DNA of 37,351 nucleotides from Henriciella sp. Its GTDB lineage: Bacteria > Pseudomonadota > Alphaproteobacteria > Caulobacterales > Hyphomonadaceae. Below the pieces are notes generated by a model, which searched no databases, was not told the DNA's origin, and saw nothing but the letters and a program-made list of their open reading frames with translations. Shown here piece by piece: positions 5,871 through 24,093 of the stretch. Within the stretch, counting starts at the first letter, position 1. Every line of letters starts with the position of its first letter. The stretch is from assembly GCA_012960415.1 (NCBI GenBank), contig DUBH01000043.1, positions 65,365 to 102,715 on the forward strand. Direction: 5' to 3'. Position numbers and translations under genes: made by a program.

Positions 5871-5906
5871 CGCCGTCTCTCACGATTGCCTCCGTGAGGG
5901 ACGGCG
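5871..5906 (+). terminator. terminator hairpin after thiolase
   Basis: A 14-bp stem with one G-T wobble (outer arm CGCCGTC pairing with GACGGCG) and an 8-base loop lies between the thiolase and the FabI-like gene. There is no strong T run after it. Its 3' arm overlaps the -35 element of the promoter at 5895, so termination and initiation are packed together. Confidence 0.55.
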
Positions 5907-5922
5907 GCTTTGGCTGCGTATT
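5895..5922 (+). promoter_or_regulatory. ECF-type promoter, site 1 (fabI-YHS-copper ATPase)
   Basis: TGAGGGA at 5895-5901, 15 bases, then CGTATT at 5917-5922. The same layout occurs at six other sites in the window, one of them in front of the ECF sigma operon. The leader to the GTG at 5942 would be very short. The match is read directly from sequence; use by the sigma factor is inferred. Confidence 0.65.
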
Positions 5923-5941
5923 ATTCTGCAAGGAGCTGGAT

Positions 5942-6730
5942 GTGAGCACACCCGATTGTGATCTTCGCGGAAAAACCGCACTGATTGTCGGCATTGCGAA
6001 TAGTGATAGTCTGGCCTGGGCGGCGGCCACGTCCCTTCGCGGTGCAGGCGCGCGCCTGGCGATCACCTATTTGAACGAGAAGGCTCGCCCGCATGTTGAA
6101 CCTTTAGCGAGAAAGGCAGATGCAGATCTCATTCTCGAATGCGATGTCACCAAACCTGGATCGCTGGACGCTGTCTTCGACGCGGTCGCAGCAAAATGGG
6201 ATCGGCTTGATCTTGTCTTTCACGGGATTGCAAGTGCGCCAAAATCTGATCTTCAGGGGCGTTTGACAGACTGTTCGGCCGACGGTTTCGCAGCCGCCAT
6301 GACGGTGTCTTGCTATTCGCTCCTTCATATGGCGCGGCGGGCTGAACCATTAATGCGACGCGGCGGCTCTCTGATCACGCTCAGTTTCTATGGCTCAGAA
6401 AAAGTCGTTGATCACTATAATGTCATGGGCCCGGTCAAAGCTGCGCTTGAAAGCGCTGTACGCTACCTTGCCCATGAGCTCGGACCCGCCGGCATCCGCG
6501 TCAATGCCATTTCCGCCGGACCCGTTGCGACAAGAGCCGCGTCTGGCCTCACCCATTTCGAAGAATTGCTAAACGAGGCCGCAGCCAAATCACCGCTGCG
6601 ACGAACAATCGATGCCAGCGAAGTCGGAAAAGCGGCTTTGTTTTTGGCCAGCGATCTGTCCAGCGGCGTGACCGGTGAAATCGTTCATGTCGATGCCGGG
6701 TTCCATATCGATGGCATGATTTTTCATTGA
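5942..6730 (+). CDS. enoyl-ACP reductase FabI-like short-chain dehydrogenase
   Basis: A 262-residue SDR of the FabI subgroup, which reduces enoyl-ACP with NAD(P)H in fatty-acid elongation. The nucleotide loop is FabI-like (VGIANSDSLAWAAA). The catalytic pair is seen as Tyr-x6-Lys in YNVMGPVKAAL, and the usual RVNAISAGP and HVDAGFHIDG motifs follow. I start at GTG 5942 because AAGGAG lies at 5930-5935; an upstream GTG at 5894 lies inside a hairpin and promoter. It leads an operon with the YHS protein and copper ATPase, behind the ECF-type promoter at 5895. It is probably a paralogue rather than the housekeeping FabI, given this context. A role in membrane repair during metal stress is possible but unproven. 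Confidence 0.85.
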   Translation: MSTPDCDLRGKTALIVGIANSDSLAWAAATSLRGAGARLAITYLNEKARPHVEPLARKADADLILECDVTKPGSLDAVFDAVAAKWDRLDLVFHGIASAPKSDLQGRLTDCSADGFAAAMTVSCYSLLHMARRAEPLMRRGGSLITLSFYGSEKVVDHYNVMGPVKAALESAVRYLAHELGPAGIRVNAISAGPVATRAASGLTHFEELLNEAAAKSPLRRTIDASEVGKAALFLASDLSSGVTGEIVHVDAGFHIDGMIFH

Positions 6731-6741
6731 GAAGAGAAACG

Positions 6742-6951
6742 ATGATGACCGTAGAAGACCCTGTTTGCCGCAACACGATCCCCCTCGAAAACGCTCACGC
6801 GTCAGAGGAATATGGTGGATGGGCCTATTTCTTTTGCTCTAACCGTTGCCACACAGCTTTCAAACTAAATCCCGAACGCTATGCAGACGCGCGCATTCCC
6901 GCCGCCTTCAGCGCGCCGAGCGACGCCTCTCACCCATCCCGCAAAGCATGA
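6742..6951 (+). CDS. YHS-domain protein
   Basis: A 69-residue cytosolic protein made almost entirely of a YHS domain: DPVCRNTIP at the N-terminus and YFFCSNRCHTAFKLNPERYA after it, with three Cys that could bind a metal ion. YHS domains occur alone or fused to copper P-type ATPases. It sits 11 bases after the FabI-like gene and 24 bases before the ATPase, which here lacks a YHS domain. It may deliver metal to the ATPase in trans (inference). Start is either of the two adjacent ATGs at 6742 and 6745; an in-frame TTG at 6727 is less likely. The last 20 residues are low-complexity Ser/Ala/Pro. Confidence 0.8.
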   Translation: MMTVEDPVCRNTIPLENAHASEEYGGWAYFFCSNRCHTAFKLNPERYADARIPAAFSAPSDASHPSRKA

Positions 6952-6975
6952 CTTAGCAGACAAAGACCCTCCACC

Positions 6976-9024
6976 ATGGATCACTCCACCCACGCCCCCC
7001 CCTCTCGCCACGCGCCTCATGGCGGTCACGGACAGAAAAAAACGGACCCGCATGGCGGCCACGACCATGAAGGCATGATTGCCGATTATCGCCGGCGGTT
7101 TTGGGTTGTGCTGGTGGCCACGATCCCCATCCTCGCTTTGGCGCCGATGATCCAAGGCTGGCTTGGCCTCGAAGATGCCTTGCGGTTTCCGGGTGACCGT
7201 TATGTGCTGGCAGGGCTTTCAAGTCTTGTTTTCTTCTATGGCGGTTGGCCGTTCCTGAAAGGGTTTTTGCAAGAGATCACCGCCCGCGACATCGGTATGA
7301 TGACGCTGATTTCGGTCGCGATTACGGCTGCTTACGCCTATTCCATCGGCATGGTCGCAATCGGCAGTGATGAGACCTTTTTTTGGGAGCTCGCAACCCT
7401 GATTGCGGTGATGTTGCTCGGGCACTGGATCGAGATGAAATCGGTGCTTGGCGCTGGGCGCGCCTTGGAAAAACTTGCAAGCCTGATGCCGGATGAAGCC
7501 CACCTGGTGGCGGATGACGGCAGCGTAATCGATGTGTCCGTTTCGACGCTGAAAGGCGGCGAACATCTTCTGATCAAGCCAGGCGAGAAAGTCCCAGCTG
7601 ACGGGATCATTGTCAGGGGCGAGTCGTCTCTCAATGAATCCATGCTCACCGGCGAGTCCAAGCCGATTTTCAAGACCGTGGAGACCGAAGTGATCGGCGG
7701 ATCAATCAATGGCGAAGGTTCGCTAACAATCCGGGTCGACAAGACCGGTGATGAGACTTTCCTGTCGAGCGTCATCAAGCTGGTTAAGGAAGCCCAAGCC
7801 AGCAAATCCAAAACCCAGGATCTCGCCAACACGGCGGCCAAGTGGCTGACTTTTATCGCACTTGGCGGAGGCCTATCGACCGTCTTGTTCTGGACCCTGT
7901 TCACCGATCAGGGATTTGGGTTTGCTATGGCGCGCGCCGTTACCGTGATGGTCATCGCCTGCCCGCACGCGCTTGGTTTGGCTGTGCCGCTTGTGGTTGC
8001 GCGCTCGACCGCGATCGCGGCCACCAATGGATTGCTCATTCGGGATCGGACGGCATTCGAAGAAGCGCGCAACATCAATGCCATCATTTTCGACAAAACC
8101 GGCACGCTGACCAAGGGCGAGTTTGGGATCACCGATACGCTTGTTTTTGATACGACATTCACTGAGAGCGATATCGTCGCCTACGCGGCGTCTATTGAAG
8201 CTCATTCTGAACACCCAATCGCCCAGGGGATCGTTCGCGATGCGCCGCAGGCATGGGGTGTCGACAAGTTTAAGGCGATCCCTGGCAAAGGTGCAGAAGG
8301 CCTCGTTAAGGACCGCGACGTGAAAGTCGTCAGCCCCGGCTATTTGCGCGACCAGGGTCTTGAAATGGATGATCCCCGGTTCGAAACCCTGAGCGCGCAG
8401 GGCAAGACAGTCGTCTTCGTGCTCATTGATGACAAGCTCGCTGGCGCAATCGCGCTGGCCGATATCATTCGTGAGGAATCCGCTAAAGCCATCCTCATGC
8501 TTCAGGCCATGGGCATTCAGTGCATCATGCTCACTGGCGACAATCAACAGGTGGCGGAATGGGTCGGCCAGGAAATCGGCCTCGACGAAGTGATTGCCGA
8601 AGTCCTGCCAGAAGAAAAAGCCGCTAAAGTCCGTGAAGTTCAGTCCCGCGGTCTGATCGTGGCGATGACCGGCGATGGCGTGAACGATGCGCCGGCGCTG
8701 GCTCAAGCGAATGTCGGGATCGCAATCGGTGCAGGCACGGATGTCGCGATCGAAACCGCCGACATTATTCTTGTTCGGTCCAGCCCGTCTGATGTCGTGG
8801 CGATCGTCGAGTTGGCTCGCGCGACTTACAATAAAATGATGCAAAACCTCGCTTGGGCGACCGGCTATAACACGTTCGCCATTCCAGCGGCGGCGGGGGT
8901 GTTTTTCCCCTGGGGCGTCATTCTCACACCCGCGCTTGGCGCCGTGTTCATGTCGGCGAGCACCGTGATCTGCGCAATCAATGCGCAACTCCTTAAACTG
9001 TCTCGATCGCGGGTGTCGGCATGA
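6976..9024 (+). CDS. copper-translocating P-type ATPase, CPH (CopB/P1B-3) type
   Basis: An inner-membrane pump of 682 residues that exports copper or silver using ATP. The first 35 residues are His-rich with repeated HGGH, and there is no CxxC domain. In order: membrane segments, actuator loop with MLTGESKP, the transmembrane metal motif CPH at about residue 329, phosphorylation motif DKTGTLTKG at about 373, HSEHPIAQG (nucleotide binding), MLTGDN and [13 protein letters not shown] instead of CPC together with a His-rich N-terminus is characteristic of P1B-3 (CopB, often Cu(II)/Ag(I)). It lies in the operon behind the promoter at 5895 and shares ATGA with the next small gene. No domain is missing for this subtype. 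Confidence 0.95.
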
Positions 9025-9251
9025 CAGTGCGAGGTGTTGTTCCGGGTTTCGGGTTTTTGACGCTCTGCTTGAGGGCGCTCAGCATCGGAGCGCTCCTGCT
9101 CCTGGTCCTGGATCATGCCGGGCATTTGAGCTGGCAAGATTGGCTGTTGATCGTTTTTATTTTTGCGGCGCAGCTCATCGGGTTGAGGCCTTCAGGCCGG
9201 AGCCGCGTATCAAACCCATCATCTTCATCCCGCGGATCCCGTCCGTTCTGA
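9021..9251 (+). CDS. small membrane protein, unknown
   Basis: A 76-residue protein whose start overlaps the copper ATPase stop (ATGA). It has two predicted membrane helices (around residues 10-30 and 39-55) with an Asp-His pair between them, then a Ser/Arg-rich tail. I recognise no family. The coupling suggests a small accessory of the pump or of the following DUF2933-like protein. Confidence 0.6.
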   Translation: MTVRGVVPGFGFLTLCLRALSIGALLLLVLDHAGHLSWQDWLLIVFIFAAQLIGLRPSGRSRVSNPSSSSRGSRPF

Positions 9252-9273
9252 CCCTGCTATAGGAGTATTCGCT

Positions 9274-9561
9274 ATGCACAACCATTCTGATCATGATGAC
9301 CATCGGCCAAAAGGTGGACGCTTCTGGATGCCGCTCTTGGTGTTCGCCGGCGCGATCGGCTTCCTGTTACTCTTTGAACACCGCGCTCATATCCCCGGTG
9401 ATGCGGTCTTCCTGGTCAGCTTCTTACTCCTTTGCGGTGTGATGCATCTATTCATGCACAGCTCGATGGGCGGACATGGAGGTCATGGGGGGCATGGCAA
9501 TCACGAAGGCCAGAGCCCGTCCCAACTGGATGAGGATGATGACTGGAGGACACGGCGATGA
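9274..9561 (+). CDS. DUF2933-like small membrane protein, His-rich
   Basis: A 95-residue membrane protein with a His/Asp-rich N-terminus (HNHSDHDDH), two membrane helices (around 18-35 and 45-62), and a C-terminal HGGHGGHGNH stretch. This resembles DUF2933 proteins that commonly accompany copper ATPases and ICMT-like methyltransferases. AGGAG at 9261-9265 supports the start. Its stop overlaps the start of the methyltransferase by four bases. The His clusters could bind Cu or Zn at both sides of the membrane, but no function is established. Confidence 0.8.
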   Translation: MHNHSDHDDHRPKGGRFWMPLLVFAGAIGFLLLFEHRAHIPGDAVFLVSFLLLCGVMHLFMHSSMGGHGGHGGHGNHEGQSPSQLDEDDDWRTRR

Positions 9562-10241
9562 GTGAGAGCATGGCCCATTCTGAATATGGTCTCTGGTTCC
9601 TGGTGATCCTGAACTCGGCCATCTTCATCATTTTCGCGTTCAGTTTTGCAAAACCATCCAAGTCAAAAGACTGGACGTCATTTGGCGCCTTTAGCGGTTT
9701 TGTGATCGCTCTTTTTACCGAGATGTATGGCTTCCCGCTTTCGATTTACTTCCTCTCGCCATGGCTTGAATCGCAGTTTCCCGACATCAATTGGTTCGCC
9801 CATGATTCCGGGCATTTCTGGGAGATGATTTTCGGCTGGCAAGGCAATCCACATTTTGGCCCATTCCACTTTGCCAGCCTCGGCTTCATCTTGCTGGGTT
9901 TTAGCGTTCTGTCATGGGGGTGGCCGATCCTGCACGGGGCGCTGCGCAGTGGCAAGCTCGCCAAAACCGGCATTTATGCCCGCATGCGCCACCCGCAATA
10001 TGCCGGCTTCGTGCTGATCATGTTTGGGTTCCTGCTGCAATGGCCGACCATCCTTACCCTGATCATGTTCCCGGTTCTGGTGTTCATGTATGTCCGTCTT
10101 GCCCTCAGAGAGGAGAAGGACGCCGAAGCCGCATTCGGCCACGAGTATCGCGCCTACGCCGCGGTCACTCCGCGCTTCTGGCCGCGTTGGGGACGCTTAG
10201 AGACCCTCACGCAATCCCGCCCGAATGATTTGCCTTCCTAG
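9558..10241 (+). CDS. isoprenylcysteine carboxyl methyltransferase (ICMT)-like membrane protein
   Basis: A 227-residue integral membrane protein of the ICMT/PEMT-like family. The C-terminal half has the family hallmark TGIYARMRHPQYAGF, followed by two helices and LREEKDAEAAFGHEYRAY, which together form the S-adenosylmethionine site. The N-terminal half adds two or three helices. Bacterial members of this type are often found in copper-resistance operons after a DUF2933 gene, as here, and their substrate is unknown (lipid or small amine are options). It is the last gene before the hairpin at 10256. Confidence 0.85.
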   Translation: MSESMAHSEYGLWFLVILNSAIFIIFAFSFAKPSKSKDWTSFGAFSGFVIALFTEMYGFPLSIYFLSPWLESQFPDINWFAHDSGHFWEMIFGWQGNPHFGPFHFASLGFILLGFSVLSWGWPILHGALRSGKLAKTGIYARMRHPQYAGFVLIMFGFLLQWPTILTLIMFPVLVFMYVRLALREEKDAEAAFGHEYRAYAAVTPRFWPRWGRLETLTQSRPNDLPS

Positions 10242-10255
10242 CCCTTCTCATTCTT

Positions 10256-10281
10256 GCGATCCGCCGGACCAGGCGGATCGC
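10256..10281 (+). terminator. terminator hairpin of the copper ATPase operon
   Basis: A perfect 10-bp stem (GCGATCCGCC/GGCGGATCGC) with a 6-base loop begins 15 bases after the methyltransferase stop. No T run follows, which is common in this window. Confidence 0.6.
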
Positions 10282-10286
10282 GGAAC

Positions 10287-10314
10287 TGAGGGATACCTAA
10301 ACATTCAAGTTTAC
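10287..10314 (+). promoter_or_regulatory. weak eighth ECF-type promoter candidate
   Basis: TGAGGGA at 10287-10293 matches the -35-like element perfectly. However, the hexamer 15 bases on is GTTTAC instead of CGTANN. At 14 bases, AGTTTA keeps only GT and one more base. It lies in the right place for the patatin operon, with AGGAGG at 10340-10345. Confidence 0.3.
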
Positions 10315-10349
10315 ACTGCTACAGGTTCATCCAGCTTGAAGGAGGCAAT

Positions 10350-11225
10350 ATGCAGCACAAGAGCTTCGGCCTCGTTCTAGCCGGCGGCGGGGCGCGCGGA
10401 ATGGCCCATGTGGGCGCCCTCAGAGCGCTCAACCATCTTGGATATTATCCAAGAGTTGTTGCGGGAGTTTCGATCGGCGCGCTTGTCGCGGCGACTTATT
10501 CGCTCAATCCGAACTGGTACCTGGACTTGAGAGAGATGGATGTATCGGGCTTCCCCCGCCTGCCAGAGCTCAAAACGCATGGCCTAAAGGAAAGGCTCAA
10601 AAGTTTTATATTGGCTGGACGTGATCTGAAGTCTTTAACCTTTGGATGGGGCATTGGTGAGCACACGGTCGACTGGGGCCGTTCGGTGATCGAAGATTTA
10701 ACCCTTGGCAAAGACCTGCAGCAAGGCCGTGTGGAAACCCTGATTACGGCAACGGATATTCTGAGCGGTGAAAGGATCATTAAAACAAAGGGGCATGCGG
10801 TCGATGCGGTTTATGCCAGCTCGGCGATCGCCGGCATCTTACCACCTTTTGAAGACGGCGAGCATCTCCTGGTTGATGGCGGCTACTCTGATAGCTCACC
10901 CGTGGACATTGTCAGAAATGCAGGCGTCGATTGCGTTATCACGCTCGATCCGGGTCAACGCATTAGCGATTATCCGCCTCAAAATGGGCTGGATGTCTTC
11001 CTGCGTTCGATCGAAATCACTCACAAAGCCTTTTCGAGATCACGCTACGAACACGCTGATCTGGTGTTGACCCCGCGTTACGACACTCAGATCGGATTGT
11101 TCGATTTTCAACACACTGGTCGCTGCATCGCTGCTGGAGCCAAAGCCGTCAAACGCGCAGCGCCTCAATTAGGGAAGCTTCTGGCGCCGGCTCAATCCGA
11201 CGCCGAAATGTTATCCGCAGAATGA
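10350..11225 (+). CDS. patatin-like phospholipase (RssA/NTE type)
   Basis: A 291-residue soluble lipid acyl hydrolase with a Ser-Asp dyad. The oxyanion loop GGGARGMAHVGAL is at residues 12-24. The nucleophile elbow is GVSIG near residue 40, and the catalytic Asp is in LVDGGYSDSSP. It resembles the bacterial RssA/NTE-like patatins that cut acyl chains from phospholipids or lysophospholipids. AGGAGG five bases upstream fixes the start. A desaturase and an FAD oxidoreductase follow, so the three genes probably remodel membrane lipids together. Confidence 0.9.
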   Translation: MQHKSFGLVLAGGGARGMAHVGALRALNHLGYYPRVVAGVSIGALVAATYSLNPNWYLDLREMDVSGFPRLPELKTHGLKERLKSFILAGRDLKSLTFGWGIGEHTVDWGRSVIEDLTLGKDLQQGRVETLITATDILSGERIIKTKGHAVDAVYASSAIAGILPPFEDGEHLLVDGGYSDSSPVDIVRNAGVDCVITLDPGQRISDYPPQNGLDVFLRSIEITHKAFSRSRYEHADLVLTPRYDTQIGLFDFQHTGRCIAAGAKAVKRAAPQLGKLLAPAQSDAEMLSAE

Positions 11226-11283
11226 GCATCCCTTTATCCATCCCGCTCCGACCTGCGCCAGGGCAGCCAAGAAAGATCAGCTC

Positions 11284-12348: not shown

Positions 12349-12349
12349 A

Positions 12350-14819: not shown

Positions 14820-15281
14820 TTATTCTGTGGCAGCCTCCTCCTTATCGCCCGTCATCATTGGGCAGTGCTCAGCTGGATCATGGCCCATGGCTTCATGCTT
14901 GGCCTGACAGTCTTCCGGAGACATTGGATGCTCGCCTGATGCGTCATGCATTTTATGGCCATCCGCGCCATGTTCCGTCATTTTGTCCATGTCCATCGCC
15001 ATGCCGCCCTCGCCCATCATGGGTTTGTCGCTATCCATCATGTGATCGCCGCCATGGTCCATCATATGACCTTCAGCCATCTTATCTTCCATGTTGGCCA
15101 TACAGCCCTCCATGCCCTCCATGCCTTCATGACCCGCCATGCAGGTTTTGGCCTCGGCGGCGTCTGCCTCTGCTTCAACGGCAGGTGTTTCGCTGTGATC
15201 GTGCGTCTTGTGGCCGTCTTGAGCCAAGGCCGTGGGCGACAAGGCAAAAATAGCGGCGGCGGTGATCAAGATTGGTTTCAT
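14820..15281 (-). CDS. Met/His/Cys-rich periplasmic metal-binding protein
   Basis: A 153-residue protein with a typical signal peptide (MKPILITAAAIFALSPTALA) and a mature part dominated by Met, His, Asp and Glu: runs such as CMAGHEGMEGMEGC, HMMDHGGDHMMD and MAMDMDKMTEHGADGHKMH. Such sequence binds Cu(I), Cu(II) or Ag(I) in the periplasm. I start at the inner ATG (15281) because AAGGA is spaced correctly for it; the outer ATG at 15290 overlaps the ribosome binding site. The promoter at 15338-15365 has the ECF-type layout, so it should be induced with copAB. No named family is recognised. Many overlapping frames on the opposite strand are artefacts of its composition. Confidence 0.8.
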   Translation of the reverse strand: MKPILITAAAIFALSPTALAQDGHKTHDHSETPAVEAEADAAEAKTCMAGHEGMEGMEGCMANMEDKMAEGHMMDHGGDHMMDSDKPMMGEGGMAMDMDKMTEHGADGHKMHDASGEHPMSPEDCQAKHEAMGHDPAEHCPMMTGDKEEAATE

Positions 15282-15312
15282 GAGGGGCATCCTTTATATA
15301 ATTATTCGAGCC

Positions 15313-15340
15313 CAAGGGTATTGGGCACTTGCAACGTATT
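15313..15340 (+). promoter_or_regulatory. ECF-type promoter, site 3 (EamA transporter)
   Basis: CAAGGGT at 15313-15319, 15 bases, then CGTATT at 15335-15340. The first base differs from the usual T. Its -10-like hexamer overlaps, on the other strand, that of site 2, inside the 9-base palindrome CGTATTACG (15335-15343). Confidence 0.55.
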
Positions 15341-15365
15341 ACGCAGCACACAGGCGGCGCCCTCA
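15338..15365 (-). promoter_or_regulatory. ECF-type promoter, site 2 (Met/His-rich protein)
   Basis: On the minus strand: TGAGGGC (15365-15359), 15 bases, CGTAAT (15343-15338). It lies 57 bases before the ATG at 15281. Same architecture as the sigma operon's own promoter. Confidence 0.65.
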
Positions 15366-15407
15366 TAATCGGCTCCACTCTTTCAAGTGTTTCACCGGAG
15401 CCCTGGT

Positions 15408-16316
15408 TTGATTGTCAGCCCCCGCATTCTCGCAGCGCTCGTCATGGTCTTATGGGCCTCCTGCTATCCGCTCATCACGCTGGGGCTCGACTATGCGCCT
15501 CACCTGACCTTTGCAGCGCTACGCGCTGTTCTGGCTGGTAGTGTTTTAATAGGTGTCGCCGCTCTGCGCCGAGCCGCGTTGCCTCGCGGGTGGACCGTTT
15601 GGGGCTGGATCACGCTTGCTGGTCTTGGAATGACCGGCATTGGCTACTTCGGAATGTTTCACGCCGCGGAGTTTGTATCACCTGGTCTTGCGACCGTGAT
15701 AGAAAGTCTCCAGCCGTTGATCGCCGCCGTGCTCGCTGTCGTGTTTCTGCGCGAACGTCTTGGACCGATTGGCTGGTTTGGGCTTTGCCTCGGCGTCGGC
15801 GGCGTGGCGCTCATCGCCATACCGCGCGTACTGGCCTCGGGCGGGGGGTCAACAGCCTTCGGTCTGGTCCTGGTAATTATGGCGACGAGCGGCGTCGCTG
15901 TAGGTAACATCGCCATTAAGTCATTAGCGATGCGCGTCGATGCGGCGATGGCGATGGGGTTACAGCTTTTGGTTGGAGCGATCCCGATCTCAATTTTGGC
16001 GTTCGCGACCGAATCCCCAACGGCCATCGACTGGTCGGCGCAATTCATAATTTCACTTCTTGGACTCGCCCTGCCCGGGACGGCGCTGGCCTATTGGTTA
16101 TGGCAGGTGACTTTGCAGTCGCTGGATGTATCCAAGGCGGCCGCATTTAGTTTTCTCGTTCCGATCATTGGCGTTTCGATTGGCGCGCTATTCTTCTCAG
16201 AGCCACTGACGATAAATGTCATTGGCGGCGGCGCGCTCGCTGCCATCGGGATCTATCTCGCATCGCGCCCGAGGTCCGAAACGTCGCCGCTAATGTCTGC
16301 TAAAAAAGAAGCCTAA
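15408..16316 (+). CDS. EamA/DMT-family transporter
   Basis: A 302-residue inner-membrane protein with about ten helices in two repeated EamA halves (ASCYPLITLGLDYAPHLTFAALRAVLAG in the first; TALAYWLWQVTLQSLDVSKAAAFSFLVPIIGV in the second). DMT exporters move metabolites or drugs out of the cell; the substrate is not known. I favour the TTG at 15408 with GGAG at 15397-15400; a GTG at 15387 would add seven residues but has no ribosome binding site. It overlaps the convergent sigma gene by four bases. An ECF-type promoter at 15313 places it in the proposed regulon. Confidence 0.85.
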   Translation: MIVSPRILAALVMVLWASCYPLITLGLDYAPHLTFAALRAVLAGSVLIGVAALRRAALPRGWTVWGWITLAGLGMTGIGYFGMFHAAEFVSPGLATVIESLQPLIAAVLAVVFLRERLGPIGWFGLCLGVGGVALIAIPRVLASGGGSTAFGLVLVIMATSGVAVGNIAIKSLAMRVDAAMAMGLQLLVGAIPISILAFATESPTAIDWSAQFIISLLGLALPGTALAYWLWQVTLQSLDVSKAAAFSFLVPIIGVSIGALFFSEPLTINVIGGGALAAIGIYLASRPRSETSPLMSAKKEA

Positions 16317-16882
16317 TCGAGCTTTTCGACCTGTTCCTGCAAGATTTTCCGGGCGCGGTAGACCCGTGTTTCCACCGCCTTGATGGAGACACTAAGTATT
16401 TCGGCCACTTCACTTTGGGGCATGTCTTGAAGGACCTGCAGCGTAAAGGCCTGCCTCAACTTATCTGGCAGCGCGTCCACCATTTTCGAGACACGGTTGA
16501 GCTCATCGCGGTGCTCATAATCGTCTTGAACATTTTGCGAGTGGTCCGCGATATCGGGCCGATCCGGGCTCTCCAGAGGTGCTGCTTGAAAGAAAAAGCT
16601 TCGCACGGCGCGTTTACGGCCATGATCACGAACTTTGTTGAGCGCAATGTGGTAGATCCAGGTCGAGAACTTCCGCGACGGGTCATAACGGTCAATCGAA
16701 CGCCAGGCTGCGGTAAAGGCTTCCTGCAGCACATCATAGGCGTCTTCATTGCCACGCATCGAGCGTTGAACGTAGCGGTAGAGCGGTTCCTTGTAACGGC
16801 GCATAAGCTCGGTGAAAGCGCGTTCCTCGCCCCCCGCTGCGGCTACAGCAAGCTCTGCATCTGTTCGCTCTGTGTTGTGCAC
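16313..16882 (-). CDS. ECF RNA polymerase sigma factor (CnrH-like)
   Basis: A 189-residue ECF sigma factor. Region 2 runs from about residue 24 to 92 (LMRRYKEPLYRYVQRSM, AYDVLQEAFTAAW, FSTWIYHIALNKVRDHGRKR) and region 4 from about 132 to 185 (LPDKLRQAFTLQVLQDM, SVSIKAVETRVYRARKIL). It is the third gene of an operon after a CnrY-like anti-sigma candidate and a CnrX-like sensor, the order of the cnrYXH metal-response locus. It is released when the sensor binds metal, by analogy. The operon's own promoter (17702-17729) has the layout found at six other sites, which suggests autoregulation and a local regulon. Confidence 0.93.
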   Translation of the reverse strand: MHNTERTDAELAVAAAGGEERAFTELMRRYKEPLYRYVQRSMRGNEDAYDVLQEAFTAAWRSIDRYDPSRKFSTWIYHIALNKVRDHGRKRAVRSFFFQAAPLESPDRPDIADHSQNVQDDYEHRDELNRVSKMVDALPDKLRQAFTLQVLQDMPQSEVAEILSVSIKAVETRVYRARKILQEQVEKLD

Positions 16883-16892: not shown

Positions 16893-17327
16893 CTAAAGCT
16901 CCGTCAGTGCTCGAACGACTTCTGCGTCAAAGACGATCGCTTGTTCCTCGGTAAGGATCTCGCGCATCTCAAACACATGCTCGATAGTGACTTTTTGCAG
17001 TTCCCCCATGGCTGTGTGGAAATCATCGATCGCCGCCTGAACAGCGGGCGAATAGGATTTGTCGGCCTCCATAGCGCCAGCAAGTGCCAAGTTGGCCGCG
17101 CGAAGCTTTTGTTCCAGCTCAGCCTTTCTGGCCGCGAAACGGTGTTCGATTAGCTCGAGTTCTGCTTCCTGATCCGCTGAGAGATCCAAGTCGTGATGGA
17201 CCAGCTCATGCAAACCAGACGCTGTTTCGACCGGATGCGTTACAGACCAGTTTCCAGCGACAAACACGCCGGTCATGCCCGCGCACAGGGCTAGGAAAAC
17301 GACAATGATCCAGTGTTCTAGTTTCAT
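16893..17327 (-). CDS. periplasmic heavy-metal sensor (CnrX/Spy-like)
   Basis: A 144-residue protein anchored by one N-terminal helix (residues 5-25) with a helical periplasmic domain. LHELVHHDLDLSADQEAEL and HVFEMREILTEEQ closely match the metal-site helices of CnrX, where His, Glu and Met ligands bind Co/Ni/Cu; the middle is a long charged coiled coil (HRFAARKAELEQKLRAA). It sits eight bases after the anti-sigma candidate and ten before the sigma gene. A ribosome binding site, AGGAG, lies two to three bases before the ATG. It probably senses copper rather than Co/Ni given the neighbours, but the metal is inferred. Confidence 0.88.
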   Translation of the reverse strand: MKLEHWIIVVFLALCAGMTGVFVAGNWSVTHPVETASGLHELVHHDLDLSADQEAELELIEHRFAARKAELEQKLRAANLALAGAMEADKSYSPAVQAAIDDFHTAMGELQKVTIEHVFEMREILTEEQAIVFDAEVVRALTEL

Positions 17328-17335: not shown

Positions 17336-17653
17336 TTACCTCAGAAGCCCGGAAGGGGCATATGGGGCGTCAACAGAGAAGACCGAAAAATCGCTCGGCG
17401 ATGACTGGCTGGGCGCCCCGAACAATCCGACCAAAAGGCCGATTGCAACGGCAAGCGCAACCGCCGCGGTTCGACTTACTGCCGGTGTCGCAAAAAGGCG
17501 TCTGTCTGTGGCAATCGCTGCGGGCGAAGCTGGGTGTCCGGCTGGGTTGCGCGCGTCAATCCGCTCCCAAACCTCGGCTTCGAGACAGTGAAGGTCGCGA
17601 TCAAGCGGTTCAATCTTTAAATCATTAATGAGCACATCTAGGTCATTTTTCAT
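17336..17653 (-). CDS. CnrY-like anti-sigma factor candidate
   Basis: A 105-residue single-pass protein. An acidic helical N-terminus (NDLDVLINDLKIEPLDRDLH, CLEAEVWERID) faces the cytosol and would bind the sigma factor. A membrane helix follows at about residues 63-81 (AVALAVAIGLLVGLFG), then a short periplasmic tail. This small bipartite form and first position in the operon match CnrY. The ATG at 17653 has AAAGGAG eight bases upstream; the longer form with nine more residues is not supported. Family assignment is by layout and context, because CnrY sequences diverge strongly. Confidence 0.78.
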   Translation of the reverse strand: MKNDLDVLINDLKIEPLDRDLHCLEAEVWERIDARNPAGHPASPAAIATDRRLFATPAVSRTAAVALAVAIGLLVGLFGAPSQSSPSDFSVFSVDAPYAPSGLLR

Positions 17654-17701
17654 GGCGCTCTCCTTTCGAGAAGCAAACATAGGGAAGATTACGTATTGAC
17701 G

Positions 17702-17729
17702 TATACGCAGCGCCTATCGCGCTCCCTCA
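17702..17729 (-). promoter_or_regulatory. ECF-type promoter, site 4 (own promoter of the sigma operon)
   Basis: On the minus strand: TGAGGGA (17729-17723), 15 bases, CGTATA (17707-17702), 49 bases before the anti-sigma ATG. Finding the shared motif here is what ties it to this sigma factor. Confidence 0.7.
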
Positions 17730-17789: not shown

Positions 17790-17817
17790 TGAGGGATAAT
17801 ACCTGTCGACACGTAGA
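17790..17817 (+). promoter_or_regulatory. ECF-type promoter, site 5 (membrane protein)
   Basis: TGAGGGA at 17790-17796, 15 bases, CGTAGA at 17812-17817, 37 bases before the ATG at 17854. It is divergent from site 4, with 60 bases between the two -35-like elements. Confidence 0.65.
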
Positions 17818-17853
17818 AACTGGCATCTGGTCGCATTTTCGCAAGAGACGCCA

Positions 17854-18333
17854 ATGACTCAAGAACTGGACATCCCGAAACCACCCACCCATCCAAACTG
17901 GCGGTTGGTAAAGTTCTTTTTCACCTACATTTTGATTATCGCGGTCGTAAACCTGATTTGGGAGGTCGCCCACGCGCCGCTTTACACGATCTGGATTGAT
18001 GGGACACGCGCCGAGATCGCCTTCGCGATCGCGCACTGCACACTTGGCGATGTCCTGATCGCCGGGTCTTCACTGTCGATCGCCTGGCTTATCGCGGGGC
18101 GTGGCGGATGGCCAGACATACACTATTGGCGCGTTGCAGGTTTAAGCCTCCTGATTGGACTGACCTATACGGTGTTCAGCGAATGGCTGAATATTTCGAT
18201 CCGCGAAAGCTGGGCCTATCGCGAAACAATGCCGACGATCGCACCGCTCAACACCGGGCTATCGCCGCTCTTACAGTGGCTGATCATCCCCAGTCTGACC
18301 TTTGCCTGGCTGAAAAGTGCGATGCGGCGGTGA
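17854..18333 (+). CDS. four-helix membrane protein, unknown
   Basis: A 159-residue inner-membrane protein with about four helices (residues 20-42, 55-80, 88-108, 130-152). WEVAHAPLYTIW, AHCTLGDVLIAG and FSEWLNISIRESWAYRE stand out and contain His, Cys, Asp and Glu within or near membrane helices. I recognise no named family, though similar small membrane proteins occur beside copper oxidase genes. The ECF-type promoter at 17790 and its position 132 bases before copA suggest a role in metal resistance. The start at 17854 is the first ATG and lacks a strong ribosome binding site. Confidence 0.75.
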   Translation: MTQELDIPKPPTHPNWRLVKFFFTYILIIAVVNLIWEVAHAPLYTIWIDGTRAEIAFAIAHCTLGDVLIAGSSLSIAWLIAGRGGWPDIHYWRVAGLSLLIGLTYTVFSEWLNISIRESWAYRETMPTIAPLNTGLSPLLQWLIIPSLTFAWLKSAMRR

Positions 18334-18373
18334 CGGGTCGCTAAAGTGTCGCACCTCATACCCTAAGGGGGCA

Positions 18374-18401
18374 TAAGGGGTGCCTGGCGTGGCCGCGTAA
18401 C
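18374..18401 (+). promoter_or_regulatory. ECF-type promoter, site 6 (copAB)
   Basis: TAAGGGG at 18374-18380, 15 bases, CGTAAC at 18396-18401, 65 bases before copA. A second TAAGGGG ten bases upstream does not have a correctly spaced partner. An imperfect inverted repeat (GCACC at 18351 to GGTGC at 18383) covers the -35 region. Confidence 0.6.
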
Positions 18402-18465
18402 CATCCGATAAGGACGCCCATTCCTCACCCAATATTCTAGCGGCGTCCAACGCAATAAGGAGAAC

Positions 18466-20067
18466 ATGATGCGTTTCAAACTTGCCGGGCTGCTCATCGC
18501 GACAAGCAGCTTGATCGCGCCTGCCTCACTCGCAGACGTCTATAATTTGGAGATCGACCAATTTGAACGGACGGTCGATGGCAAGACGCTGACTGGCGTC
18601 AGCATTAACGGGACGAGCCCTGGCCCTCTATTGCGACTGCGTGAAGGCGAAGACGTGACCATCAATGTCACCAATACACTCGACGTAGATACCTCGCTTC
18701 ACTGGCATGGGATTATCCTGGACGCTGGTATGGATGGCGTTCCGGGGATCAGTTTTGACGGCATCGCGCCGGGCGAGACCTACACTTACAACTTCACCGC
18801 CAACCAGTCAGGCACCTACTGGTACCATGGACACTCTGCGCTGCAGGAACAGGAGGGCGTCTTCGCGCCCATCATAATCGAACCGGCACAGCCGGACCCC
18901 TTCGAGTATGATCGCGAGCATGTGATCATTCTCGCCGACTGGCTGAACGACAGTCCCTACAAAGCGCTCGCCAATCTCAAGAAGCGCTCGAACTATTACA
19001 ATTACAATCGCCGAACCGTTTTCGACCTCTGGCGTGATTGGACAAATGCTGATGGCGGCGAAAAGACCGACGTCATCCAGGAGCGACTGGCGTGGGGCCG
19101 GATGCGCATGGATCCAACCGACATTGTCGACATTACCGGCTACTCGTTTCTGGTGAACGGTGAAACGCCTGAAGACAATTGGAGCGGTCTTTTCGAACCG
19201 GGCGAGAAAGTCCGTCTCCGGTTCATCAATGCTGCCGCCATGACCTATTTCGACGTCAAGATTCCGGGACTCAAAATGACAGTGGTCCAGGCCGATGGTC
19301 AGAACATCGAGCCAGTCTCGGTTGATGAGTTCCCGATCGCTATCGCTGAAACCTTCGACGTTATCGTCGAGCCTGAGGCGGGACAATCATATACGATCTT
19401 CGCCGCTGCAAAGGACCGATCAGGATATGCCCGCGGCACACTCAGCGAGACACCCGGCGCCGAAGCGGCGATCCCGGAACTTGGGCCCCGGCCAGAGCTG
19501 ACAATGGCAGCGATGGGCGAAGGCCATGCCAGCCACGGCGCGATGGCTGATGGTGAAGCTACCGGCATGGATGAGATGACCATGGACATGAGTGGAGACG
19601 CCCATAGCGGACATGGCGAAATGCCTGCGATGGAGCAAGGACAGAAAGTCCTCACCTATGACGATCTCCGCGCGCTCACGCCATATACGGACCGGCGAGC
19701 TCCAGATCGCGAGGTCGAGCTTCGTCTCACAGGGAACATGGAACGGTATTTCTGGTCGATTAACGACGTGAAGTTCGGTGACGCCGGCCCGCTGGAGTTT
19801 AATTACGGCGAACGCGTTCGTATCACATTCAAGAATGAAACCATGATGGAGCACCCGATGCACCTGCATGGATTGTGGATGGATCTGGTGAATGGCGAGG
19901 GCGACATGGCGCCCCGCAAGCACACGATCACGATCCGGCCAGGTGAAACTATCTCCGCCGATGTAACCGTCGATGCCACCGGATCCTGGGCCTTCCACTG
20001 CCACATTCTCCAGCACGCCGCGACCGGCATGTTCCGGCAAGTCGACGTCATTGGCGGCGTTCAATAA
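18466..20067 (+). CDS. copA: copper-resistance multicopper oxidase CopA
   Basis: A 533-residue periplasmic multicopper oxidase, thought to oxidise Cu(I) to less toxic Cu(II) and to sequester copper. It has a Sec-type signal peptide ending about residue 23, without the twin-arginine motif usual in CopA. The copper ligands are all present: HWHG, WYHGHSALQEQEG, HPMHLHG and HCHILQHAATGMF. A Met/His/Gly-rich insert (about 345-390, with MDEMTMDMSGDAHSGHGEM) matches the copper-binding loop of CopA. AAGGAG precedes two consecutive ATGs at 18466 and 18469. CopB follows 24 bases later. It is shorter than many CopA proteins but appears complete. Confidence 0.94.
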   Translation: MMRFKLAGLLIATSSLIAPASLADVYNLEIDQFERTVDGKTLTGVSINGTSPGPLLRLREGEDVTINVTNTLDVDTSLHWHGIILDAGMDGVPGISFDGIAPGETYTYNFTANQSGTYWYHGHSALQEQEGVFAPIIIEPAQPDPFEYDREHVIILADWLNDSPYKALANLKKRSNYYNYNRRTVFDLWRDWTNADGGEKTDVIQERLAWGRMRMDPTDIVDITGYSFLVNGETPEDNWSGLFEPGEKVRLRFINAAAMTYFDVKIPGLKMTVVQADGQNIEPVSVDEFPIAIAETFDVIVEPEAGQSYTIFAAAKDRSGYARGTLSETPGAEAAIPELGPRPELTMAAMGEGHASHGAMADGEATGMDEMTMDMSGDAHSGHGEMPAMEQGQKVLTYDDLRALTPYTDRRAPDREVELRLTGNMERYFWSINDVKFGDAGPLEFNYGERVRITFKNETMMEHPMHLHGLWMDLVNGEGDMAPRKHTITIRPGETISADVTVDATGSWAFHCHILQHAATGMFRQVDVIGGVQ

Positions 20068-20091
20068 CAAACACCCATAAGGACAAAACAG

Positions 20092-20787
20092 ATGAAACCC
20101 AAAATCCTGATAGCGGGTGCGCTCGCTATGGCGACCGCCCTGCCTGCCCTCGCAGCCGAAGGTGACCCGGTCTACAATTACACGCTGATCGAAGCCGATA
20201 TTGCCGAGATTGATGATACAACCGTCGGTGCCTTTGATGCCCAAGGCTGGGTCGGCGGCGATTATAATCGCTTTTGGTGGAAGACCGAAGGTGAGTTCGC
20301 CGATGGCGACTTCGAGGGCGCCGAGGTCCAAGCGCTGTATTCACGCTACATTTCAAAATTCTGGGATGCCCAGATTGGTGTGCGCTACGATCTTGAGCCA
20401 AAAGGCGAGACCTATGGCGCTATAGGACTGCAAGGACTTGCGCCCTACTTCTTCGAAGTTGATGCCGCCGCCTTTGTCTCTTCGAGTGGCGATGTCAGCG
20501 CCCGATTTGAAGCCACGGGCGAACTTTTATTCACGCAACGCCTGATCCTCGAACCCGGCATTGCGCTAGATTTCTATGCCGAAGACGATCCGTCCCGGCA
20601 GATTGGTTCGGGATTAGCGACGGCGGAATATAGCGCTCAATTGCGCTATGAATTCACCCGTGAATTCGCACCTTATGTTGAGCTTGCCTATGAAGAAGCC
20701 TATGGCGACACCGCTGACTTTCAACGATTGGAAACCGGCAGCGCGGATGACACCGTTTTTAAAGTCGGCTTGCGAACCATGTTCTAG
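20092..20787 (+). CDS. copB: copper-resistance outer-membrane protein CopB
   Basis: A 231-residue CopB-family protein. A signal peptide (about residues 1-21) leads to a beta-barrel with alternating aromatic strands and the family blocks YNYTLIEADIAEID, VGGDYNRFWWKTEGE, GVRYDLEPKGETYGAIGLQGLAPYFFE-type segment, and a C-terminal strand ending in Phe (FKVGLRTMF), the usual outer-membrane signature. The Met/His-rich N-terminal region of longer CopB proteins is absent. It is co-transcribed with copA and ends 66 bases before a strong hairpin. Confidence 0.92.
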   Translation: MKPKILIAGALAMATALPALAAEGDPVYNYTLIEADIAEIDDTTVGAFDAQGWVGGDYNRFWWKTEGEFADGDFEGAEVQALYSRYISKFWDAQIGVRYDLEPKGETYGAIGLQGLAPYFFEVDAAAFVSSSGDVSARFEATGELLFTQRLILEPGIALDFYAEDDPSRQIGSGLATAEYSAQLRYEFTREFAPYVELAYEEAYGDTADFQRLETGSADDTVFKVGLRTMF

Positions 20788-20853
20788 CAATTCTTAGGAG
20801 GCAGCGTTTCTATTGGCGACTCCGGACCGGCAATCAATCAGCAGACGGAAGCT

Positions 20854-20881
20854 AAGGCCCGCATCGAAGGATGCGGGCCTT
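20854..20881 (+). terminator. terminator hairpin after copAB
   Basis: A perfect 12-bp stem (AAGGCCCGCATC/GATGCGGGCCTT) with a GAAG loop, 66 bases after copB. It is the strongest hairpin in the window, though without a T run. Confidence 0.7.
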
Positions 20882-21285
20882 GATCACTCCTAGCGGCGGC
20901 AATGGAGACATATAGTCTGGCTCGAATTCGGAAGATGACCATGAAAGATTGATGGTGCGCTGTGTCCGACCACTTACTCTGCCTATACACGGGTCGGCTC
21001 ATCGACTGTAAGGCTCTGGCGCAATTCCAGAGACGGCAAAGCCCACCGATGATGAAGCACCTAATTTCCGCGGCACACTTCGATCTTCGACCCGTTTCTT
21101 TGGACGATGGCGATACTGTCTTCTACTACTCAAACGATGCTGAATGAGCATTTTTTCAGAGCGAACCCAGTCCCTACAATCGGGTCCACCCCGACGAGCG
21201 CCTTCAGAAACTGACTGGACGTGATTGGTTTAAAGAATTCGCCTGGGCCATCAACAGATGGCCAAGAAGTGAATATCCGCGTCAA
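20882..21285 (+). other. gene-poor A+T-richer stretch with a possible coding remnant
   Basis: About 400 bases between the copAB terminator and the DUF3644 gene. A frame from GTG 20962 is open for 61 codons to TGA at 21145. It then stays open beyond the stop for at least 45 more codons, with protein-like content (AFFQSEPSPYNRVHPDERL, then GRDWFKEFAWAIN). No family is recognised. It may be a decayed gene interrupted by TGA, or chance. Confidence 0.3.
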
Positions 21286-22488
21286 TTAGGACTTATTAAG
21301 CTTCACCGCTTTGATCTTGTTTCTCTTTTTTGGATCGGTCCACTCGCTAGCCAAAAGATCCACCCAGTCTTGCGAGTATGAATAGTCTTTATGGAGCGAA
21401 TGGTAGGTACAAAATTTGCCGTTCACTTGCTTAGACTCAGGTTTGAAATTACGCGGCCGCACTTTGTGAAAACGCCATGCCTGAGTGTGATTGTGTGAAG
21501 TGAATTTCTCTTCTGTGCGTTCGTCCACGAGCTTTGTGACATCCGATGCCCGAAACGGGTGGGACTTGCCGGCGTCTTTGTACTTCACCAAAATGTTTTC
21601 GATGGCTTCAGCCTCGGGGGTGTCAGGTAATACGAACCGAATGTGGGCTTTGCTCTTCGAGGTAGACGTAAGCGTATAAACTACGCCAAACTGGTAGTGA
21701 AGATCTGCGATTTGCTCGTCGGTCATTCCCTCTGCCAGCTGCGCGTCAACAGCTTTGATCTTCTTGGGCAATTGATGGGACTGTACAGAACCGAGTTGGC
21801 CAATCTCCATTCGAGCAAATTGAAGAGCAAGTGAAAGCTCACTTGATAGTGAGAGCCTGTCCCCAAAGAGCTCGCAGATGGTTCGATCAAAGTTCAAACA
21901 ACAGGCTTGATAGAGAGCATGCCAATCTGGATCTACCCCACCCAGCAAATGATGCTCGACTTTGTCTCGAATGAGTTTCAGTGCGCGCAGGTTGTTCTTT
22001 GTCCCTTCCGAGACCGGGCAATCAGGACGCTCTAGCATCGCGGTCAATGAAAGTGATTGACCGTCAGAGTTGTAGATGGAGACTTTGGTGCGCTCATAAT
22101 GCTGATGTAACAGGTACGTCCACGCAATATTCGCGAGAACTGAAAACACTTCAGTTTTGAAATTTACGCCAGGACTGTTGAACGTCTGCACAGCAAGTAT
22201 CATAGCCTCGCGCGCGCGAACCAATCGTTCGTCATCGTATAGATTCAATCCGGTTTTAGGATCTATCGCTGCCTTCTTTGCGATGTAGAGATTGGTTTCT
22301 TTTTCGCTGGCGCATTTTTGGCCCTCGTTCTTTTTTACCTCAGTGATCCGCGCACTGTTTATAGTGGCTGTACGGCCCTGATTGATCAGGTCTTGGATGT
22401 CCTGGTTTCGCCATCCGCGTTGAAGCAACGCCTTAGCGACACGCTTTTCAGGCGCGGCCAATGAGCCTTGTTTTGATCGCTTAGCCAT
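21286..22488 (-). CDS. DUF3644-like protein with HEPN-type motif
   Basis: A 400-residue protein resembling DUF3644. The N-terminus looks like a helix-turn-helix (VAKALLQRGWRNQDIQDLI, then TINSARITEVKK). The central helical domain (about 75-240) begins LVRAREAMILAVQTFNSP and includes IRDKVEHHLLGG, where Arg174 and His179 are spaced R-x4-H as in HEPN ribonucleases. The C-terminal third is basic, with no recognised domain. It is an isolated gene in sequence clearly richer in A+T than its flanks, so it is probably a recent arrival. A defence or toxin role is possible for a HEPN-like protein but is not shown. No antitoxin-like partner is visible next to it. The 22489-22673 gap shows nothing definite. 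Confidence 0.72.
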   Translation of the reverse strand: MAKRSKQGSLAAPEKRVAKALLQRGWRNQDIQDLINQGRTATINSARITEVKKNEGQKCASEKETNLYIAKKAAIDPKTGLNLYDDERLVRAREAMILAVQTFNSPGVNFKTEVFSVLANIAWTYLLHQHYERTKVSIYNSDGQSLSLTAMLERPDCPVSEGTKNNLRALKLIRDKVEHHLLGGVDPDWHALYQACCLNFDRTICELFGDRLSLSSELSLALQFARMEIGQLGSVQSHQLPKKIKAVDAQLAEGMTDEQIADLHYQFGVVYTLTSTSKSKAHIRFVLPDTPEAEAIENILVKYKDAGKSHPFRASDVTKLVDERTEEKFTSHNHTQAWRFHKVRPRNFKPESKQVNGKFCTYHSLHKDYSYSQDWVDLLASEWTDPKKRNKIKAVKLNKS

Positions 22489-22673
22489 TTCAAAAGACTA
22501 GCACAGATCTCCTAAGAGTTGATTTTTTGATTTTCTTCAACTCGTTCGAGATGCGGACGATTTGGCTAACTGAACTCAGACTGGCGCTAAATCGACAGGC
22601 AGCGATGAGCGCCCTAGTTAAAGCGTTTGGTGTGACTCCGCACCATTATCCGAAAACGAAGCGTGCCAGATCA

Positions 22674-23954
22674 TCAGAACTGATACACCGGCGCAAACCC
22701 GCCGCCGCTGGTGCGGAAGTTGGTCGTCTGTCCCTGATAAACGCGGGCAGCCAACAGCAGTGTTTTCCCGGCATAAGTGTAAAGCCGAACGTCATACTTC
22801 AGTGTTACCGGCTCTTGGTCGACAGTTACAGCGCGCACCGTCGGCGGGACCAGGGCTTGAGCAATATAATCCCCTTCCAGGATTGCCGACCAGACGCGTT
22901 TCGTCAGCTTGTCACCACGATAAGCAGCACGGCTGCCAAAACCCGCGGCGGGTTTAAAGAAGTATCCTCGCCGCGTCGCCCAAAGCTCATCAGCGACGTC
23001 TTCGGTAACGCGCCGCGTATCGGGGATCGCCGCAAGCACCTGTCGGTCTGCGTCATCCGCGCCAAACGATTTAAGCGAATCTGGATCGCTAAGCCAAATC
23101 AGGTTTCGTTTGTTGGCATAGAGCGCGTGGTGGCGCGGCGCCGGACTGATAACCACCGCCTCGTCGAGGAGCGCGGCGCGCAGATGTGCATGACCTGGCT
23201 CGGACAGATCAAAATCCGTTAGCCGATTATAGACCATGTCGATAGCTCTTCCACCGTGCGCAAGATCGCCGTTCTCATAGGTGAGCGCCTCGGGGTCAAG
23301 GATGAGGGTTTCGATGCCGTTGCGGGCCAACAAGTCTCTCGCGAGCACCATGTCCGGATAGAGATACTGCCCAGATGCGTCCTGATCGAGAATAGCCAAC
23401 CTGCCCGGACGGCCCTCCCGTCCCGTCGCCTGCCACTCAGAGATGAAGCTTTCAACAAGGACTGCATCGATTGCGTCCGAATCCGCGAGACGCGCATCTC
23501 CGCAAGCCTCAGCATGTTTCGCCGCAGCGCGCTGGAGCTCGCTGACCAGGAAGGCTCCGCCGGCATTTGTATTTATCTCAATGAGTTTGGGTCCGTCTTC
23601 AGAGATGTGAAAATCGTATCCCATGAACAGACCGCGTGCGCCGGTCTGAGCGCTGAAAATATTATCATTTGAGCGTGCCAGGGCGACCTCTTGATAAGAC
23701 GTCAGGGATGCCACCGCTTCAATTGCAGACACTTGCGCCTGCATCGCCCGCAGGTCCGATGGTGAGACAAAAACGGCCGTGGCCGCAAATAGATTGGGCC
23801 GCGCCGCCAGAAGCGCCGAGAGCTCATCATTGCCGGCATGATCCAAAATGGCTTCATCAAGATCGGCCCTGCCGAGCGTCATGCAAAAGCAGGACTTGTT
23901 GAGGGAAATCAAATCACTTGCGCCAGGCAGTTCGCAGGTTTTATCGCACCGCAT
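22674..23954 (-). CDS. circularly permuted ATP-grasp-like protein, unknown substrate
   Basis: A 426-residue protein. Near residue 124 it has KLIEINTNAGG, which resembles the Mg-binding E-x-N motif of ATP-grasp enzymes. A glycine-rich ATP loop with a Lys, FFKPAAGFGSRAAYRG, comes later at about 332. That order is reversed from classical ATP-grasp and fits the circularly permuted group (glutathionylspermidine synthase-like). VYNRLTDFDLSEP and ANKRNLIWLSD are further conserved-looking blocks. The ATG at 23954 has AAGGGG upstream; a TTG three bases earlier is weaker. It is divergent from the phosphoketolase operon. It would join a carboxylate to an amine or phosphorylate a substrate, but the substrate cannot be told. 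Confidence 0.7.
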   Translation of the reverse strand: MRCDKTCELPGASDLISLNKSCFCMTLGRADLDEAILDHAGNDELSALLAARPNLFAATAVFVSPSDLRAMQAQVSAIEAVASLTSYQEVALARSNDNIFSAQTGARGLFMGYDFHISEDGPKLIEINTNAGGAFLVSELQRAAAKHAEACGDARLADSDAIDAVLVESFISEWQATGREGRPGRLAILDQDASGQYLYPDMVLARDLLARNGIETLILDPEALTYENGDLAHGGRAIDMVYNRLTDFDLSEPGHAHLRAALLDEAVVISPAPRHHALYANKRNLIWLSDPDSLKSFGADDADRQVLAAIPDTRRVTEDVADELWATRRGYFFKPAAGFGSRAAYRGDKLTKRVWSAILEGDYIAQALVPPTVRAVTVDQEPVTLKYDVRLYTYAGKTLLLAARVYQGQTTNFRTSGGGFAPVYQF

Positions 23955-24065
23955 CAAAACCCCTTTCTGGGCGAGACTGAACCATCACACTCATCGCCTT
24001 TCTCCTGCTTATAGGCTGCGTTTCTGGGCCGCGAAAGCCAGCCTGAATCCACGCAAATCTGATCG

Positions 24066-24093
24066 TGAGGGTTTGCCCGCCACGCGCCGTATC
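24066..24093 (+). promoter_or_regulatory. ECF-type promoter, site 7 (phosphoketolase operon)
   Basis: TGAGGGT at 24066-24072, 15 bases, CGTATC at 24088-24093, 55 bases before the ATG at 24148. It rules out the upstream extension of the reading frame to 23848 and links this metabolic operon to the copper genes. Confidence 0.65.

Follow-up and report, generated by a model that had tools for sequence, protein, structure and literature searches.

The window analysed here is a stretch of 37,351 nucleotides from the marine bacterium Henriciella sp. (Alphaproteobacteria, Hyphomonadaceae; assembly GCA_012960415.1, contig DUBH01000043.1, positions 65,365 to 102,715), and the contig that holds it is referred to below as C43. 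It contains an operon of the cnrYXH kind, which encodes an extracytoplasmic function (ECF) sigma factor called here sigma A, together with copper-type genes beside it and, further along, an operon headed by a gene for a phosphoketolase-family protein (Table 1). In a preliminary description of this DNA it had been proposed that one CnrH-like sigma factor controls these genes through a two-part motif present at seven sites, and the gene labels given there around the sites have been borne out.

Table 1. Features of the window, with the evidence for each (G numbers denote genomes of relatives).
Feature	Position	Strand	Evidence
3' end of third sigma-like gene	1..216	+	start and CnrH-type site outside window (C43:64873+)
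Acetate kinase and phosphotransacetylase	2351..4647	+	in line after third sigma gene and DUF3141
Predicted CnrH-type promoter of fabI, YHS, P-type ATPase	5895..5920	+	exact motif; G026 keeps 10/10 motif and 8/16 spacer bases
FabI paralogue, YHS protein, copper-type P-type ATPase	5942..9024	+	domain matches
Met/His-rich periplasmic protein	14820..15290	-	sequence; no Pfam match
Predicted variant CnrH-type promoter (CAAGGG) of EamA	15313..15338	+	kept in G020, G024, G026, G033
Predicted CnrH-type promoter of Met/His-rich protein	15340..15365	-	exact; conserved in G020, G024, G026; TGGGGG in G033
EamA transporter	15387..16316	+	domain match
CnrH-like ECF sigma factor (sigma A)	16313..16882	-	Sigma70 regions 2 and 4; CnrH 4cxf, E 1.9e-27
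CnrX-like periplasmic metal sensor	16893..17327	-	Metal_resist domain; best solved match CnrX, E 1.7e-20
CnrY-like anti-sigma candidate	17336..17680	-	position and gene order match cnrYXH; single hydrophobic stretch; no Pfam match
Predicted CnrH-type promoter of cnrYXH-like operon	17704..17729	-	exact motif; conserved in G020, G024, G026, G033
Predicted CnrH-type promoter of membrane protein	17790..17815	+	exact; kept in G020, G026; degraded in G024, G033
Membrane protein	17854..18333	+	sequence; no Pfam match
Predicted variant CnrH-type promoter (TAAGGG) of copAB	18374..18399	+	kept in G020, G026, G033
CopA multicopper oxidase and CopB	18466..20787	+	domain matches
Predicted CnrH-type promoter of phosphoketolase operon	24066..24091	+	exact motif; N16 site in 15/80 phosphoketolase loci
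Phosphoketolase-family protein	24148..26535	+	XFP domains; solved relatives
Beta-CASP ribonuclease (RNase)-type protein	26532..27908	+	nearest TTHA0252
Thymidine/AMP phosphorylase-type protein	27905..29425	+	nearest 4ga5
Phosphoribosyl pyrophosphate (PRPP) synthetase-type protein	29429..30289	+	nearest 1u9y
CsoR-like gene	33759..34097		

The motif, TGAGGG-N16-CGTA, occurs in exact form five times in the window, where 0.05 copies are expected and none of 100 shuffles reaches five. In the whole genome (3.52 Mb) there are 17 exact copies against one for a reversed-pattern control. The constant spacing claimed for the window, which had been described as one free base followed by 15 and is equal to N16, holds in the genome as well: when spacers from N12 to N20 are scanned, the 17 exact sites at N16 compare with 14 over the eight other spacings combined. 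Two of the seven sites carry the motif only as variants, namely that at 18374 (TAAGGG, one mismatch) and that at 15313 (CAAGGG, two mismatches), and the minus-strand coordinates first given as 15338 and 17702 were shifted by two bases. Relaxed matching is dominated by chance, with 26 matches against 24.8 expected when two mismatches are allowed in the window, and 149 against 102 for the reversed control when one is allowed in the genome. The case thus rests on the exact sites and on variants backed by place and conservation, and for the two variant sites of the window it is position and conservation that count. The window sites end 21 to 66 bases before the start of the listed frame, where 20 to 68 bases had first been reported, and, as had been described, one of them precedes the sigma operon itself. 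The sites at 15313 and 15340 face each other two bases apart, a layout kept in G026, and for this reason the transcripts of the EamA and Met/His-rich protein genes would overlap at their starts.

Eight of the 17 exact genome sites lie on C43, five on contig C44 and four elsewhere, which places 13 of 17 on a pair of contigs with many copper genes. The remaining four (C73, C80, C19) fall within long open frames and are treated as background. The regulon is therefore not local to the window, as had been supposed, since its sites span about 35 kb of C43 and extend to C44. On C43, further sites precede an outer-membrane protein with a DcuC-like carrier, and a CMAS gene (variant TCAGGG); the site at C43:62502- lies about 360 bases from a phosphate-transporter frame, no gene being evident in the interval, and the transporter gene is not a safe target. 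The third sigma gene has an exact site ahead of it and is followed by DUF3141, acetate kinase and phosphotransacetylase, which, to judge from gene spacing, probably share its transcript; in G026 this gene is also found behind its site and followed by acetate kinase. Contig C44 (L019, L020) carries another copper island, which has a CnrX-like sensor and a CnrH-like sigma of its own, together with copA/copB. Its CnrX-sigma operon lies behind a variant site (TAAGGG), and sites on this contig precede an APC permease, a methyltransferase, copA/copB, exact at copA and at other genes, a DUF2231 protein and a second Met/His-rich protein; this last, the likely target of C44:17774+, would start inside a longer listed frame.

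When the 17 sites of these two islands (13 exact, four variants) are aligned, strong information is confined to (T)(G)AGGG and CGTA, and the base preferences flanking CGTA are weak. The same two elements appear in plasmid pMOL28 of Cupriavidus metallidurans CH34, with CAAGGG-N17-CGTA ahead of cnrY and CGAGGG-N17-CGTA ahead of cnrC. The transcript starts of these genes have been mapped, according to PMC9045368, 24 and 25 bases ahead of the genes, which puts the end of CGTA 9 bases ahead of each mapped start. Taking into account that both mapped CnrH promoters carry the same elements, the window motif is, as judged from sequence, a CnrH-type promoter with TGAGGG as the -35 element, CGTA as the -10 element and a spacer of N16. 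The motif could instead be the binding site of a repressor or activator, for example of the CueR or CsoR type, a suggestion favoured by the CsoR-like gene in the window and by the closeness of the sites to gene starts. However, the two halves are dissimilar and lack dyad symmetry, the copies are not a repeat, since their spacers differ from site to site, and the elements are those found at mapped CnrH start sites, which makes a regulator site very improbable.

The operon behind the site at 17704 resembles cnrYXH of CH34 in its gene order, in the ligand positions of its sensor, in its promoter, with (C)(A/G)AGGG and CGTA, and in its sigma factor. Sigma A is an ECF protein with Sigma70 regions 2 and 4, contains no cysteine, is 36% identical to C. 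metallidurans CnrH and has CnrH (4cxf, E 1.9e-27) as its nearest solved structure. In a tree it groups tentatively with CnrH: the support of 89/94 falls short of the 95 mark, and one long-branched ECF sigma of the same genome falls inside the group. The sensor positions H40, H44, E61, H117 and M121 are invariant among the window protein, CH34 CnrX, the paralogue on C44 and a homologue from Hyphomonas, and we take the corresponding metal-ligand positions of CnrX to be H42, H46, E63, H119 and M123. The protein in the place of CnrY is small, with one hydrophobic stretch and no Pfam match, and by its place is a candidate anti-sigma. The differences from CH34 lie in the spacer, N17 there and N16 here, and in the targets, which there comprise the nickel/cobalt pump cnrCBA and here are of copper type; among the window genes examined no RND pump was found, and copper-type genes come after the operon instead. 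CnrH is said (PMC7563307) to serve the cnr locus only, whereas here at least a dozen promoters are predicted on two contigs.

Other metal-linked ECF sigma factors are less close. CorE-type sigmas of Myxococcus are also tied to copper (PMC8999054) but sense it through a cysteine-rich C-terminal domain, in contrast to the cysteine-free sigma A with its CnrX-like sensor. SigAb of Acinetobacter is likewise a metal-responsive ECF sigma with a copper phenotype, and differs in its promoter, GTCAAC/CGTT, and in a small direct regulon that includes relA (PMC12153292). Searches of the openly licensed literature listed no paper that links phosphoketolase to an ECF sigma factor during metal stress, and the passages of PMC4221894 consulted contain nothing on phosphoketolase. 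The machinery is of the known CnrYXH type; it is the content of the regulon, copper-type targets together with metabolic operons, that looks new.

The sites are conserved in relatives. At nine orthologous sites of the diverged relative G026, a comparison that leaves out the outer-membrane protein and phosphate-transporter sites, 89 of 90 motif bases are kept as opposed to 72 of 144 spacer bases. CAAGGG or CGAGGG-N16-CGTA is found ahead of EamA in G020, G024, G026 and G033, and TAAGGG-N16-CGTA ahead of copAB in G020, G026 and G033. The scan of relatives suggested in the preliminary description, here of 101 genomes with a sigma A match defined by an E value of at most 1e-25, gave a mean of 6.5 sites per genome with such a match (n = 24) versus 2.35 without (n = 77), the controls giving 1.7 and 1.45; sites of this kind also precede CnrX-sigma operons and copA genes in several more distant relatives.

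The phosphoketolase operon was compared over the best 80 of 573 confirmed loci. An N16 site lies upstream of the gene in 15 of the 80, starting 72 to 124 bases before the aligned gene start (one of these loci, L127, has an N in the spacer), and an N17 site in five; across the 80 loci no site was obtained with a spacing of 10-15 or 18-23, or with the pattern reversed. A sigma A-like gene is present in the fetched flank of 14 loci, 13 of which have the site; the site is also present in L119 and L122, two short pieces that include no sigma gene. This retention near the sigma gene, together with the exact site in the window, supports the promoter first proposed for this operon and, along with the CnrH promoter agreement and the cnrYXH-like genes, lends computational support to a CnrH-like sigma as the reader of the motif. 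Eleven of the 15 N16 loci belong to Hyphomonas, Henriciella or near metagenome-assembled genomes (MAGs). In a separate group (L128, L129, L131, L137) the phosphoketolase is 64-66% identical, the sites are TCAGGG or CCAGGG and the sigma is 36-39% identical to sigma A, the three sigmas of this group placed in the tree forming their own clade. The N17 loci come from Brevundimonas and other MAGs, and L132, matched by place to G081:C9, has a sigma further along. By tblastn, 77 of the 80 loci contain the RNase, 66 the phosphorylase, 62 the PRPP synthetase, 37 a P-type ATPase and 34 acetate kinase. A CnrH-type promoter common to every phosphoketolase cassette was considered and rejected, given the loci that lack a site.

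Several observations weigh against a single regulon joining copper defence to this metabolism. The phosphoketolase-family protein is a remote member whose reaction is putative: it has XFP (131 bits) and XFP_N (41 bits) domains and is related to solved phosphoketolases (E 2.5e-22), but it scores below the NCBIfam phosphoketolase cut-offs. In 60 of the 80 loci no site is found with N16 or N17, L145 has the sigma and no site, and the compared loci are related, so that the counts are not independent. G024 and G033 carry a 94-97% identical sigma and no phosphoketolase match, and in both the membrane-protein site (17790-17815) is degraded. Six to nine sites are also present in five of the 77 genomes that lack a sigma A match, and one of these five, G067, has a match resembling the second sigma (Sigma2). 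Finally, the genes of the second CnrH-like sigma, encoded on C44, have this motif ahead of them as well. The sigma without phosphoketolase in G024 and G033, and the 60 site-free loci, indicate that the metabolic arm is optional.

The C44 sigma raises the question of which factor acts where. A controlling sigma of the CnrH type, as first claimed, is supported, but there may be more than one, since the C44 sigma shares the motif and the third sigma gene itself stands behind a site. Either of these could read part of the promoters, with copper removal and metabolism switched apart, as the variant site (TAAGGG) of the C44 operon, with exact sites at its copA and other genes, and the low identity of the nearby sigma in the group with TCAGGG or CCAGGG sites would also allow. 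G010, G019 and G020, on the other hand, have sigma A and the phosphoketolase site with no Sigma2 match at E 1e-25, and such a division seems rather unlikely.

As regards the purpose of the cassette, it may be mainly a low-oxygen energy module to which the CnrH-type promoter merely adds stress expression. Proteins of the same annotation figure in a table of low-oxygen changes in Bradyrhizobium (PMC6515984), plasmid copies of the cassette lie near FixJ or Crp/Fnr genes, and an exact FNR-type box, TTGAT-N4-ATCAA, is present in 25 of the 80 loci, where 1.5 are expected by base number alone, composition uncorrected, and six loci share a near-identical site. These boxes call for caution in using the label of copper cassette everywhere. 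Against a low-oxygen role stand the CnrH-type sites retained ahead of the gene in loci with the sigma, and the P-type ATPase resembling that of the window in 37 of the 80 loci. We regard this role as possible but doubtful. The window itself has an exact FNR-type box at about 30335, ahead of an EF-hand gene (30426), which hints at oxygen control close to the cassette.

A CnrH-type sigma regulon that joins copper defence with phosphoketolase, PRPP and acetyl-phosphate operons remains the preferred explanation, with a probability of roughly 0.77. From the observed sites, their spacing and conservation, the agreement with CnrH promoters and the gene content, we infer that transcription would proceed as follows. 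At rest, the membrane CnrY-like protein and the CnrX-like periplasmic sensor would hold the sigma, which would be freed when a metal, most likely copper as judged from the target genes, binds the sensor. The freed sigma would then transcribe its own operon, copAB, the P-type ATPase operon with its fabI paralogue, and the genes for the Met/His-rich protein, EamA and CMAS. It would also act on the third sigma gene, along with the acetate kinase and phosphotransacetylase genes that follow, and on the operon of the phosphoketolase, RNase, AMP-phosphorylase-type and PRPP-synthetase-type proteins. Efflux and oxidation would reduce copper, and the metabolic operons would provide a spare PRPP synthetase and convert pentose phosphates to acetyl phosphate and ATP.

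According to PMC10249872, PRPP synthetase is inhibited by copper in Staphylococcus aureus, intermediates of glycolysis and of the pentose phosphate pathway build up, and extra prs reduces copper sensitivity; inhibition of glyceraldehyde-3-phosphate dehydrogenase (GAPDH) is cited there as well. A second PRPP synthetase, a phosphoketolase and an acetate kinase, with promoters of one type ahead of them, would fit an injury of this kind. It can thus be proposed, tentatively and at somewhat less than even odds, that beyond efflux the regulon constitutes a metal-tolerant metabolic bypass, in which a second PRPP synthetase is supplied, the RNase and the AMP-phosphorylase-type enzyme recover ribose phosphate from RNA, the phosphoketolase drains pentose phosphates, acetate kinase and phosphotransacetylase make ATP or acetyl-CoA, and the third sigma forms a cascade. 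If true, this bypass would answer the copper block of PRPP synthetase and GAPDH. A CnrH-type regulon with PRPP synthetase, phosphoketolase and acetate kinase among its members would couple a metal switch directly with that part of metabolism which copper reportedly poisons. It would also give a testable reason for the frequent closeness of the enzyme cassette to copper genes, and a consensus anchored on mapped CnrH starts lets CnrH-type regulons be listed from sequence.

Cassettes with the same enzymes, namely phosphoketolase, metallo-beta-lactamase (MBL) RNase, thymidine-phosphorylase-type protein and PRPP synthetase, are also found on plasmids, beside heavy-metal ATPases or copper oxidases in five of nine examined records. 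They differ from the window in having other regulators nearby, and in the nine of 15 records scanned, for NNAGGG-N16-CGTA only, no site lies directly ahead of the phosphoketolase gene. Most of the 15 records label the phosphoketolase-family homologues xylulose 5-phosphate 3-epimerase. Four of the nine plasmid regions (L089, L112, L113, L114) also have a type II GAPDH gene in the neighbourhood of the cassette and the metal genes, which is another possible stand-in for a copper-sensitive enzyme.

Some minor features of the genes in this region can be added. The third sigma-like gene (window 1-216; L018 17925-18581) encodes a cysteine-bearing C-terminus, and its homologues adjoin CMAS or DUF3141 genes in other records; at its locus in Hyphomonas jannaschiana it has no acetate kinase gene after it. 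The DUF3141 gene (539-2354) is broken across two frames in the window and is a single frame in G020, which points to decay or a sequence error. The nearest solved relative of the phosphorylase-type protein, 4ga5, is presumably an archaeal AMP phosphorylase. The P-type ATPase (6976-9024) has a CPH motif in place of CPC, which we take to be as in CopB-type ATPases. The thiolase frame (4646-5824) lacks its N-terminal part, and upstream of it the sequence continues to resemble thiolase in this frame, up to one stop.

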